From contig NZ_LR216287.1 of assembly GCF_900696045.1 (NCBI RefSeq), forward strand, positions 1,302,001 to 1,366,000: a DNA stretch of 64,000 nt, in the 5' to 3' direction. This document shows, one piece after another, positions 14,410 through 33,143 of this stretch. The stretch's first letter is position 1; each line of letters begins with the position of its first letter. Below the pieces are notes generated by a model that did no database searches, was not told where the DNA came from, and saw only the letters and a list, made by a program, of their open reading frames with translations. Position numbers and translations under genes: made by a program. This DNA comes from Candidatus Nitrosocosmicus franklandus (lineage in GTDB: Archaea > Thermoproteota > Nitrososphaeria > Nitrososphaerales > Nitrososphaeraceae).

Positions 14410-14939
14410 TCAATTACAGCATCGTCATAATAGTTAGAGAGATCTCAAAAAGGCAAACTAAATTAGCCTTTTTTTATCATATACATTTTTCCACAGCTTC
14501 ATGTAAATAAGAGTCACAAGTATCTAATAGCATATGCATTTGATAATAGCGAATATTTAGTGTTAAACCATAGATTTTATTATTGACTGACGACTATTGA
14601 CAAAATCTACTACATGTCATTAAAAATGATATCTATTGGAGATCAGATATAGAAATTTAACCAGAGATTTAATATATATTTCTTAAAATGTCAAATATTT
14701 ATCCGGTTAACTACATTGTTTGCAGTTCTCATAAAGACGGAGTAGAAGTCAAAAAAGCAAAATTCATTAAACCACCGTCAGAAACACGTAGTATTAACTA
14801 TACCTTGATGCAATAGTCGACTATCAATTTTAAAATACAAAATTACATTCAAGGTACGGCTCTATCGAACAAAATAATATTTACATATTACTCAAAGGTT
14901 AAAGTCTAATATTAAATAGCGTTTTTGCGAAATATCATT
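14410..14939. other. Intergenic stretch with a terminator-like hairpin
   Basis: Apart from the hairpin at 14447-14475 and a 12-bp palindrome ATAGTCGACTAT at 14813-14824, nothing coding is visible. The palindrome shares its core with the one upstream of ureA and is 116 bases before the next gene. Confidence 0.5.
14447..14475 (+). terminator. Hairpin followed by a T tract
   Basis: AAAAAGGC (14447-14454) pairs with GCCTTTTT (14466-14473) over an 11-base loop, ending in a run of seven T. It is 38 bases past the stop of the sugar dehydrogenase gene. Confidence 0.55.
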
Positions 14940-15542
14940 ATGTCTCATGAATACAAATTTAATGAGAGTCCAAATCATTTTATGGTTTTAGATGCAATTG
15001 CCCGAGGTATGAAAAAAATAAGCAGCATTGCAAAAGTTACCAAGTTATCAAAGGATGAAGTAGAATTAATCGTTAGTGACTTGAAATCACAAAGACTAAT
15101 CACCATAGAGGTAAAAAAAGGATTCTTCGGCAATAAGAAAATTGAAATCTTTATCACAGAAACAGGTACAAGAATATTGAATTTGAAAAAGGAGGAACTG
15201 TCGTACAAGTCTCAAAAACTCCAACAGCTATATGAAACTGGCAATAGAGCTCAAATGCAGAGTTATATGGACGATATCAGAATGTGGATCCCCATGATGT
15301 TATTTTCAGGATTAATAAACATGGCATTATTTGCATCCATGATGTCATTTATGGGTATGGCTATGAATCCGGCAGAAAGTGCACAAACCGAAGGACAGAT
15401 AGACAATTCAGGATCAGAAGCCTCAGGAGACGTGAATGCTTCTGATGGAGATTGGACTTCAGTCACTGCTGATACTAGTGGTTTTAGTGATATGGATTAC
15501 GGCGGGATAGGAATAGATACAGGAGGATTTGATTCCTTCTGA
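14940..15542 (+). CDS. Winged-helix protein with a membrane anchor
   Basis: A 200-residue protein from the ATG at 14940; an in-frame TTG at 14925 is a weaker alternative. Residues 1-85 look like a winged-helix domain (NHFMVLDAIARGMKKISSIAKVTKLSKDEVELIVSDL, then a Lys-rich wing and TETGTRIL). A hydrophobic Met-rich helix follows at about 125-150, then a tail of about 50 residues rich in Gly, Asp and Ser. A DNA-binding-like domain tied to the membrane suggests a signalling or nucleoid-tethering role, which is inference. No close functional name can be given. Confidence 0.75.
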   Translation: MSHEYKFNESPNHFMVLDAIARGMKKISSIAKVTKLSKDEVELIVSDLKSQRLITIEVKKGFFGNKKIEIFITETGTRILNLKKEELSYKSQKLQQLYETGNRAQMQSYMDDIRMWIPMMLFSGLINMALFASMMSFMGMAMNPAESAQTEGQIDNSGSEASGDVNASDGDWTSVTADTSGFSDMDYGGIGIDTGGFDSF

Positions 15543-15894: not shown

Positions 15895-16263
15895 ATGTTA
15901 AGGTCAAAAAACATAAACAATACTACACTAGTATTAGTAGTGGCCGTATTAGCAACCATAATGACATTCGGTCCTTCGGTATCGAATTTTCAAGCCGCAA
16001 TGGCACATTACGGAGTAGACAAAGACGACTGCAAAGACGATAAAGATTATTATGAAGATCATCAAGAAGCATGTGACAAAAACTTGAAAAAGCATTATGG
16101 CAAAGATTATGATGGTAACTTTGCATCTCAAGCTATAGGTCAGGAACAAGATTCTGAACAAAATAGCCAAGTAGTATCAGGTGAAGATAGTATAGGCTCG
16201 GGTAACAACTTTAGCTTCCAAAACCAAGAAAACTCTGGTAACAACGCAGCAGCACAACAATAA
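15895..16263 (+). CDS. Small secreted protein with an N/Q-rich repeat-like C-terminus
   Basis: A 122-residue product with a signal peptide (residues 1-37, ending AAMA). A charged segment rich in Asp, Lys and Tyr follows (about 38-75), with two Cys. The C-terminal 45 residues contain AIGQEQDSEQNSQVVSG, then GSGNNFSFQNQENSGNNAAAQQ split by two residues, which closely follows one unit of the large repeat protein at 32220-33143. The two therefore share an exported motif that may self-assemble. The protein is probably surface-located; function unknown. Confidence 0.75.
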   Translation: MLRSKNINNTTLVLVVAVLATIMTFGPSVSNFQAAMAHYGVDKDDCKDDKDYYEDHQEACDKNLKKHYGKDYDGNFASQAIGQEQDSEQNSQVVSGEDSIGSGNNFSFQNQENSGNNAAAQQ

Positions 16264-16324: not shown

Positions 16325-16606
16325 ATGAAAGAATCCATGTATAAAAGAAGCAGGTTGGAATTGTATTATCTCATATTAAAATCCTGCATAAGTAATGAAA
16401 ATCATACAAGAGGCTCGCTAAATAGGCAACTTAAGGTACCATATGCATTGCTAAATGAATGCTTGATTTACTTGGAAAGATTAGGCTTTTTAGATGTTGA
16501 CTATAACCAGAGAACAATTAAAACAACTTTGGAAGGACAAGAGTACGTACGGAAATTTAGCTATTTAATGCAACAAGTAGGTTATATAACACATCTCAAA
16601 ACATGA
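16325..16606 (+). CDS. Small winged-helix transcription regulator
   Basis: A 93-residue protein of the small winged-helix type abundant in these archaea. It opens with the typical YKRSRLELYYLILKSC helix, has the recognition-helix region VPYALLNECLIYLERLGFL, and closes with TLEGQEYVRKFSYL. It would bind DNA as a dimer. It lies 61 bases after the small secreted protein and may be read from the same region. Target unknown. Confidence 0.8.
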   Translation: MKESMYKRSRLELYYLILKSCISNENHTRGSLNRQLKVPYALLNECLIYLERLGFLDVDYNQRTIKTTLEGQEYVRKFSYLMQQVGYITHLKT

Positions 16607-31723: not shown

Positions 31724-32219
31724 ATGCGAGTATATTAAAACTAAGTTGGTCGCAAACAATAGATCTCCAACTACATCATTATCACATGAATATGTGTACA
31801 ATTACAATATTATGATCTTTTTTAATACTTTAACCTAAATTATATTAAAAGACCTCATTTAATTCTAAATATTAACAAAACAAGAACAGTAGTATATAAC
31901 ATGGCTACCAAGGATCGAGTAATAATATCTAATAGTAATCTAGTTTTTGTCAATTCTTTTGTCGTTACGTACCAGTTAAATAAACAATTAGGTTAATGGG
32001 TAGTGCAAGGTGAAGAAAGAAGTCGATCCGAATAATAAACAAATAAGACAAGATCTATTTGATTTTAATGACTTTCGACGTAATTATATAAAATTAAAGG
32101 TCAGTTAACACATGAAATTTGTTTTGACGGCGAATCACATAGAACATTTGTCTGTTAAAATAACATGTTTAAAGATTATAAAATTTAGTTTATATACAGT
32201 TGACGATACATCAAATATA
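31724..32219. other. Upstream region of the repeat protein gene
   Basis: No convincing gene; a 32-codon GTG frame at 32010-32108 is too short. A TATA-like box lies at 32189-32197. Confidence 0.5.
32189..32197 (+). promoter_or_regulatory. Candidate TATA box for the repeat protein gene
   Basis: TTTATATAC ends 23 bases before the ATG at 32220. This spacing would place transcription start almost at the ATG, which supports that start over the earlier one at 32112. Confidence 0.5.
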
Positions 32220-33143
32220 ATGAATAATATCGTTAATGTGAACAAAGCATTAAGTGTATCAACAGTCTTGGCGATGTCGTTCGTACTCCTTTTAGGTCCG
32301 ACTTCCATGACCATGAACGTATTTGCTCAGGGCAATACTGCTAACCAAGGCATAGGCCAATCACAATTTGCCACTCAATTAGGTGTTTGTGTATCTGGCG
32401 ACGGTACTCTTTTTTCCTGCAACAACTTGAATGCTCAAAACCAAGTCAACACTGGAAATAACGCATTAGCACAACAAGGTGGCGGTGGTAAAGGTGGCAA
32501 TACTGCTAACCAAGGCATAGGCCAATCACAGAGCTCTAACCAAAATGCATTATGTGTTTCTGGAACAGGAACCTTTGTTTCCTGCAACAACGTGAATGCT
32601 CAAAACCAAGTCAACACTGGAAATAACGCATTAGCACAAAGTGGCGGTGGTAAAGGTGGCAATACTGCTAACCAAGGCATAGGCCAATCACAGAGCTCTA
32701 ACCAAAACAGTGGTGTAGTTTCTGGTGGCGATACTACCGGCTCAGGCAACAACGTAAACACACAGAGTCAAACAAACACTGGAAATAACGCATTAGCACA
32801 ACAAGGTGGCGGTGGTAAAGGTAAAGGTGGCAACACAATTAATCAAGGCATAGGCCAATCACAGAGCTCTAACCAAAACAGTGGTGTAGTTTCTGGTGGC
32901 GATACTACCGGCTCAGGCAACAACGTAAACACACAGAGTCAAACAAACACTGGAAATAACGCAGCAGCACAACAAGGTGGCGGTGGTAAAGGTGGCAATA
33001 CTGCTAACCAAGGCATAGGCCAATCACAGAGCTCTAACCAAAACAGTGGTGTAGTTTCTGGTGGCGATACTACCGGCTCAGGCAACAACGTAAACACACA
33101 GAGTCAAACAAACACTGGAAATAACGCAGCAGCACAACAATAA
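32220..33143 (+). CDS. Secreted protein made of five curlin-like N/Q/G-rich repeats
   Basis: From the ATG at 32220 the product has 307 residues; an in-frame ATG at 32112 gives a poor N-terminus. Residues 1-36 are a signal peptide ending VFAQ. The rest is five tandem units of 49-57 residues starting GNTANQGIGQSQ and ending NTGNNALAQQ or NTGNNAAAQQ, joined by GGGGKG linkers. Units 3-5 are almost identical; units 1 and 2 carry paired Cys in place of VVSGGDTTGSG. The GNNAxAQQ pattern resembles curlin repeats, which build amyloid fibres, and an extracellular fibre or matrix role is inferred. The small protein at 15895 shares one unit. Confidence 0.82.
   Translation: MNNIVNVNKALSVSTVLAMSFVLLLGPTSMTMNVFAQGNTANQGIGQSQFATQLGVCVSGDGTLFSCNNLNAQNQVNTGNNALAQQGGGGKGGNTANQGIGQSQSSNQNALCVSGTGTFVSCNNVNAQNQVNTGNNALAQSGGGKGGNTANQGIGQSQSSNQNSGVVSGGDTTGSGNNVNTQSQTNTGNNALAQQGGGGKGKGGNTINQGIGQSQSSNQNSGVVSGGDTTGSGNNVNTQSQTNTGNNAAAQQGGGGKGGNTANQGIGQSQSSNQNSGVVSGGDTTGSGNNVNTQSQTNTGNNAAAQQ
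32331..33140 (+). repeat. Five tandem coding repeats of about 165 bp
   Basis: Unit starts are at 32331, 32496, 32658, 32829 and 32994, with lengths of 165, 162, 171, 165 and 147 bases (the last lacks the linker). All are multiples of three. The last three units are nearly identical at DNA level, which points to recent duplication or gene conversion. Confidence 0.93.

Follow-up and report, generated by a model that had tools for sequence, protein, structure and literature searches.

A multicopy family of putatively secreted repeat proteins with paired cysteines, essentially confined to Nitrosocosmicus: candidate surface or matrix proteins

Introduction

Nitrosocosmicus is a widespread ammonia oxidizer of soil (and skin). 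Its members have no S-layer genes, and they have a thick wall and hair-like filaments of ~30 nm (PMC11559005; PMC6776761). Passages of a biofilm transcriptome study (PMC12448741) describe N. franklandianus as aggregating first and as being without the large adhesins of other ammonia-oxidizing archaea (AOA), and they call its mode of attachment unclear; the genes described below are not named in those passages.

The window analyzed here is a stretch of 64,000 nucleotides from Candidatus Nitrosocosmicus franklandus. It contains a gene at 32220-33143 that an earlier note took to encode a secreted, curlin-like repeat protein, possibly an amyloid that is stapled by disulfides at one end and nucleated by a small secreted protein encoded at 15895-16263. 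What kind of protein does this gene encode, is it related to curlin, and could it belong to the surface of an archaeon that has no S-layer?

Results

The features of the gene are as follows.

32220..33143, + strand: predicted secreted five-unit repeat protein, 307 aa (open reading frame; dN/dS against orthologues)
~32189..32196, + strand: TATA-like promoter box TTTATATA, 24-31 nt before the ATG (sequence)
32220..32327, + strand: Sec-type signal peptide, residues 1-36, ending in TMNVFA before QGN (sequence)
32325..32474, + strand: unit 1, residues 36-85, Cys type, C57 and C67 flanking a 9-residue loop (unit HMM)
32490..32639, + strand: unit 2, residues 91-140, Cys type, C112 and C122 (unit HMM)
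32652..32801, + strand: unit 3, residues 145-194, V/G type (unit HMM)
32823..32972, + strand: unit 4, residues 202-251, V/G type (unit HMM)
32988..33137, + strand: unit 5, residues 257-306, V/G type, at the C terminus (unit HMM)

The open reading frame list offered a longer start at 32112, which we disfavor relative to the ATG at 32220. The latter is the likely start because the TATA-like box and the signal peptide are placed for it and because DNA conservation with three orthologous loci (L053, L056, and L058) begins at 32156-32178. That conservation spans only the promoter and the coding sequence, and the gene has no neighbors that travel with it. The position of the box would imply a near-leaderless transcript. 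The dN/dS ratio against orthologues is ~0.12 to 0.18, and we conclude that the gene encodes a real protein under purifying selection. The signal peptide read at residues 1-36 agrees with the proposal that the protein is secreted, and its pattern, a hydrophobic run followed by A.A, is common to the N termini of nearly all paralogues. The protein ends directly after unit 5 and has no membrane anchor.

Tandem Repeats Finder detected the repeats as an array of period 165 (4.2 copies, 88% matches, score 1034). At the protein level, the five N-, Q-, and G-rich repeats described previously were recovered as five units of ~50 aa spanning residues 36-306, joined by Gly/Lys-rich linkers. The units close with NTGNNALAQ or NTGNNAAAQ, matching the ending NTGNNAxAQQ that had been pointed out. 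Each is laid out as two strands around a 9-residue loop, and every other residue is near-invariant. Among the 63 units in the organism's own genome, the conserved positions of strand 1 (N, A, Q, I, Q, Q, S, Q) have an entropy of 0 to 1.0 bits and their neighbors 1.7 to 2.8; the conserved positions of strand 2 (N, N/S, Q, Q, N, G) have an entropy of 0 to 1.5 and their neighbors 2.1 to 3.2. Had the strand limits been set in advance, complete separation of conserved from variable positions would arise by chance with probabilities of 1/6435 for strand 1 and 1/462 for strand 2; the limits were picked after inspection, and these figures are hence descriptive only. In sequence terms, such strict alternation is the signature of putative beta strands with one buried polar face.

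A cysteine can sit at the inner end of each strand, the two being nine residues apart. As the earlier note had observed, the pair occurs in the first two units (C57/C67 and C112/C122), with V and G at these sites in units 3 to 5. The pair is all-or-none: it is present in 39 of the 63 own-genome units and absent from 24, and no unit has a lone Cys. When the units were reduced to 60 distinct sequences, 37 had both cysteines, 22 had V or A together with G, and 1 had its second Cys displaced by one position (Fisher p = 1.6e-15 for co-occurrence, a value that overstates independence since the units are related). On a tree of the units built without those columns, each Cys site switches 8 to 9 times, so the pairing does not reflect one inherited event. 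As its simplest reading, the all-or-none pair argues for an intra-unit disulfide across the arc. All 12 multi-unit open reading frames of the genome start with a Cys-type unit, and those that also contain V/G units have them further on; in close orthologues from other species the order Cys, Cys, V/G, V/G, V/G is conserved. The idea of a disulfide staple at one end thus stands as far as the N-terminal position of the Cys-type units goes, and the disulfide itself is our reading of the pair. A search confined to VKOR, a protein of disulfide formation, found no homologue in the genome.

We next turn to the family within its own genome, which is a single contig of 2,836,447 bp. The 32220 protein has 38 matches there, well beyond what chance would give, the best paralogue at E = 2e-127. 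From the protein-search matches we fetched the loci and applied the unit profile, which gave ~29 dispersed loci with 1 to 9 units, one of them disrupted; beyond these there are two proteins with a partial unit and collagen-like GXY repeats, and one fragment. The members are scattered over the chromosome with no common operon, and no clear shared promoter box was found beyond AT-rich TATA-like stretches. No Pfam family matched the 32220 protein at E <= 10, and no NCBIfam or PDB sequence matched the family. We found no published description of it, and no paper was returned when full texts were searched for Nitrosocosmicus together with curli.

Several members have features of their own. The largest, at L004:337-2334, has 666 aa, with nine units and then a long tail of SESGDN and DDDDN that is possibly a calcium-binding or charged surface brush. 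The two GXY proteins (L029:1593-2213 and L035:1456-2058, near ~2,167,100 and ~44,700) are predicted to be secreted and carry a partial Cys-pair unit fused to the repeats GDRGPPGPEGPPGPEGPPGPA; a composite surface protein of this kind in an archaeon is possible. Three copies of a two-unit paralogue (L010, L012, and L013, at 1117782, 2469728, and 1097852) are >98% identical at the DNA level. The first two share 1.4 kb of DNA that is 99.5% identical, which indicates recent duplication or gene conversion, and the locus at 1035533 (L014) is a disrupted relative.

The small secreted protein singled out as a nucleator lies in the same window.

15895..16263, + strand: paralogue composed of a signal peptide, a two-Cys acidic mini-domain, and a single V/G unit (sequence; genome search)
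16325..16606, + strand: small winged-helix protein (HTH_45), adjoining the 15895 gene (Pfam PF14947, E = 1.3e-5)

It does contain one unit similar to those of the 32220 protein, and this layout occurs in most Nitrosocosmicus genomes. A CsgB-like nucleator role is unsupported, because one-unit paralogues are common in the family and because the N-terminal mini-domain is also fused to four units at another locus (L008). To judge from its sequence, the protein seems to belong to a graded series of members rather than to be a dedicated nucleator. Its winged-helix neighbor is kept at three loci in other genomes (L069, L071, and L083) at 68 to 76% identity. A further winged-helix protein lies upstream of the 15895 gene (window positions 14925-15542); its 67% identical homologue at L007:283-882 adjoins another family member, hinting at linked regulation of some paralogues.

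The family was present in all 15 Nitrosocosmicus species genomes searched, with 6 to 56 matches each. Orthologues on named contigs all belong to Candidatus Nitrosocosmicus, in a search that used a single protein as the query and reaches close relatives only. In a sample of 400 genomes of the order, true units were limited to Nitrosocosmicus and to one metagenome-assembled genome (G191) of another genus in the same taxonomic family. That assembly (4.0 Mb, 400 contigs, 4% contamination) has 11 matches and its sibling G022 none; contamination, transfer, and old inheritance cannot be told apart as the origin of its units. Among 398 genomes sampled from the phylum, the sole out-of-genus match was marginal (E = 0.006) and had a stop codon. 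No plasmid relatives were found, and a scan for exact 8-residue peptides found no viral relatives. A few other genera of the same taxonomic family have a divergent relative whose Cys pairs are similarly spaced. Its representative, L084:1354-1995 from genome G230, is a putatively secreted repeat protein with C-x10-SC pairs and different units. About six relatives of it occur in that genome, and cross-matches to the Nitrosocosmicus family are weak (E about 1e-5); a sister family is possible. The supposition that related archaea carry the repeat was therefore borne out in 15/15 genomes of the genus, with essential absence from several hundred others of the order and phylum. We conclude that the repeat family is essentially confined to Nitrosocosmicus and was previously undescribed.

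Kinship to curlin was examined by several routes. In the whole genome, the best score for the curlin family PF07012 was 11.7 bits, against a cutoff of 20.7, and it fell at places other than 32220. The minimal curli motif is X6QXGX2NX10 (PMC3521004); its core QxGxxN occurs five times each in CsgA and CsgB, not at all in the 32220 protein, and twice in 5,108 aa of family open reading frames. Alignment of the family profile with curlin by hhalign gave a score of 10.35 and a probability of 1.55%, and 17 of 200 column-shuffled profiles scored as high. No match to CsgG (PF03783) was found in the genome, and the controls were positive. A CsgG export channel is not expected in a cell that lacks an outer membrane. 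On the Pfam, motif, hhalign, and CsgG evidence together, we reject the curlin homology that had been proposed.

What remains is resemblance. As in CsgA and CsgB, the units would follow a strand-arc-strand logic with inward N/Q and small hydrophobic residues and polar outward residues; the local pattern Q...GN.A resembles the curlin Q.GxGN.A, and the units loosely echo the curlin rule N-x-hydrophobic-x-hydrophobic-x-Q (PMC10192328). The family unit is ~50 aa, whereas that of curlin is 23. We concluded that, on the features tested, the protein is not a member of the curlin family, and that it may work in a functional-amyloid-like manner through Asn/Gln ladders.

We modeled the structure with AlphaFold2. 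The whole mature protein, with nine sequences, was all-beta and poorly resolved (pLDDT 52.6, pTM 0.40) and had no significant fold match. When three units were modeled on 25 register-matched rows, the top model reached pLDDT 70.6 and pTM 0.56, and the other four gave 33 to 57. In the top model, each unit is predicted to consist of two long strands, of 20 and then 14 residues with a five-residue turn between them, and a short third strand. Of the beta-solenoid that had been anticipated, the models thus show an all-beta content and two main strands per unit, at a quality that was low for five units and reached 70 only in the best three-unit model.

Foldseek against 350,542 PDB chains placed FapC first for the three-unit model (E = 1.2e-4, probability 0.47, TM 0.19, rmsd 21 Å), the E. 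coli CsgA fibril second (E = 0.058, TM ~0.1), and FapC again third (E = 0.065), in a scoring scheme that also counts amino acids, so that the N/Q/G composition helps these matches. Superposition on the fold neighbors was poor throughout (TM-scores 0.1 to 0.2, rmsd >20 Å). A viral structure library gave nothing at E <= 0.001. In FapC, Greek-key units are stacked on one another, Asn and Gln are conserved, and the loops are long (PMC12822426). Besides being the best fold neighbor, the Pseudomonas FapC/FapB system, a functional amyloid with a Greek-key beta-solenoid, shares with the family N/Q-rich imperfect repeats with linkers and an extracellular setting, which for the family is predicted. It differs in that the family is archaeal, without an outer membrane, encoded by many dispersed genes, and has a Cys pair inside its units. 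Searching the PDB set with the family profile gave no FapC chain at E <= 10, though FapC structures are in the fold library. The neighborhood of FapC and CsgA is hence a lead, from a predicted model, to the kind of fold and not proof of it.

Discussion

Starting from what the data support, namely an export signal read from the sequence, the anatomy of the unit, and the pairing of its cysteines, we infer polymerization and location, and give about even chances that the 32220 protein is a Sec-secreted, self-assembling beta-arch protein of the surface or matrix of this S-layer-less archaeon. This reading draws on the ~29 loci, the genus-wide presence, the alternation, the Cys pair, the three-unit model, the S-layer-less surface with its filaments, the aggregation of N. 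franklandianus without large adhesins, and purifying selection. Counted against it are the poor five-unit model, the weak superposition, the lack of sequence kinship to amyloids, the silence on these genes in the cited passages of the biofilm transcriptome study, and the failure to find VKOR.

Under this proposal, the protein would be exported by Sec and would fold outside the cell into strand-loop-strand beta-arches. Inward N, Q, A, and I residues of one unit would stack on those of the next as Asn/Gln ladders, first within and then between molecules, giving fibers or a sheet, and the resulting matrix or surface coat would keep the cells of this S-layer-less genus aggregated. The arch of each Cys-type unit would be locked by a disulfide across the arc. 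Since every multi-unit member starts with such a unit, we propose that these N-terminal units may fold in advance, giving one end a rigid cap or starting point, and leave the V/G end open for growth. Paralogues that differ in unit number and tails might co-assemble and so tune the material. A more ambitious version, which we hold only tentatively and think rather improbable, is that the family is the missing surface polymer (filaments or matrix) that replaces the S-layer: an archaeal functional amyloid, non-homologous to curli and Fap, with rungs either clasped by a disulfide or plain V/G, the clasped N-terminal rungs setting polarity.

A possible but somewhat doubtful alternative is that these proteins are folded beta-solenoids, with stacking confined to the units of a single chain, that do not polymerize, serving as adhesins or glycoprotein scaffolds whose variable outward face binds sugars, surfaces, or cells. 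Highly variable outward positions over a fixed inward face are what a display scaffold would have, the tails and N-terminal mini-domains vary among paralogues, and the weaker fold neighbors include many non-fibrous beta-solenoids (SufB/D, ice-binding proteins, and pectate lyases). However, we saw no C-terminal capping domain, the protein ending in a unit, and the one-unit members are too small for a lone solenoid and make best sense as co-assembling pieces.

It is unlikely that the proteins form a mostly disordered, low-complexity, glycosylated mucin-like coat without regular beta structure, the proposed glycocalyx. The mature 32220 protein would suit such a coat in its composition (G 22%, N 18%, and Q 15%, with no more than 9 charged and 3 aromatic residues), in its Gly-rich linkers, and in the low AlphaFold confidence of the whole chain, and N-glycosylation sequons do occur, 30 of them across the 63 units, with 17 falling at a single site. 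Disorder would not lead one to expect perfect alternation, near-constant unit length, or an all-or-none Cys pair.

Quite improbable is an extracytoplasmic metal binder, in which the two Cys, at fixed spacing and outside the cytoplasm, would hold a metal (e.g., copper, abundant in the metabolism of ammonia oxidizers) and form no disulfide; the sites are replaced by V and G and not by His, Met, or Asp ligands, and no conserved His or Met lies nearby. An ice-binding, water-structuring, or desiccation-protecting beta-solenoid, suggested by several ice-binding proteins among the weak fold neighbors and by the soil habitat, is very improbable, as all such fold matches have E > 1, the freely varying outward positions form no repeated flat Thr/Asn face, and ~29 copies with strongly variable surfaces are ill suited to one ligand.

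The self-assembling surface or matrix protein that we favor can be set beside other archaeal surface systems. The MspA sheath proteins of Methanospirillum and Methanosaeta, an archaeal functional amyloid (PMC6242892) that we compared by description only, are likewise archaeal and secreted, with imperfect repeats and several paralogues per genome (6 to 15 for MspA), and Cys has been proposed to stabilize their assembly (PMC6242892). In contrast to the present family, MspA is rich in V/P as well as N/Q, has a spacing of ~25 aa and few Cys per protein (PMC6242892), and forms tubular sheaths, of which there is no evidence in Nitrosocosmicus. The S-layer proteins and large adhesins of other AOA likely share the compartment, that of the cell surface and aggregation. 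They are large and are reported absent from Nitrosocosmicus (PMC11559005; PMC12448741), whereas the repeat family is small, multicopy, and essentially confined to this genus.

The literature calls the S-layer-less surface of Nitrosocosmicus and its mode of aggregation unresolved, and the family provides a concrete, testable candidate. If its members polymerize, N/Q-ladder surface polymers would have arisen independently in Archaea, and the units would be a natural case of disulfide switching, of use in material design.
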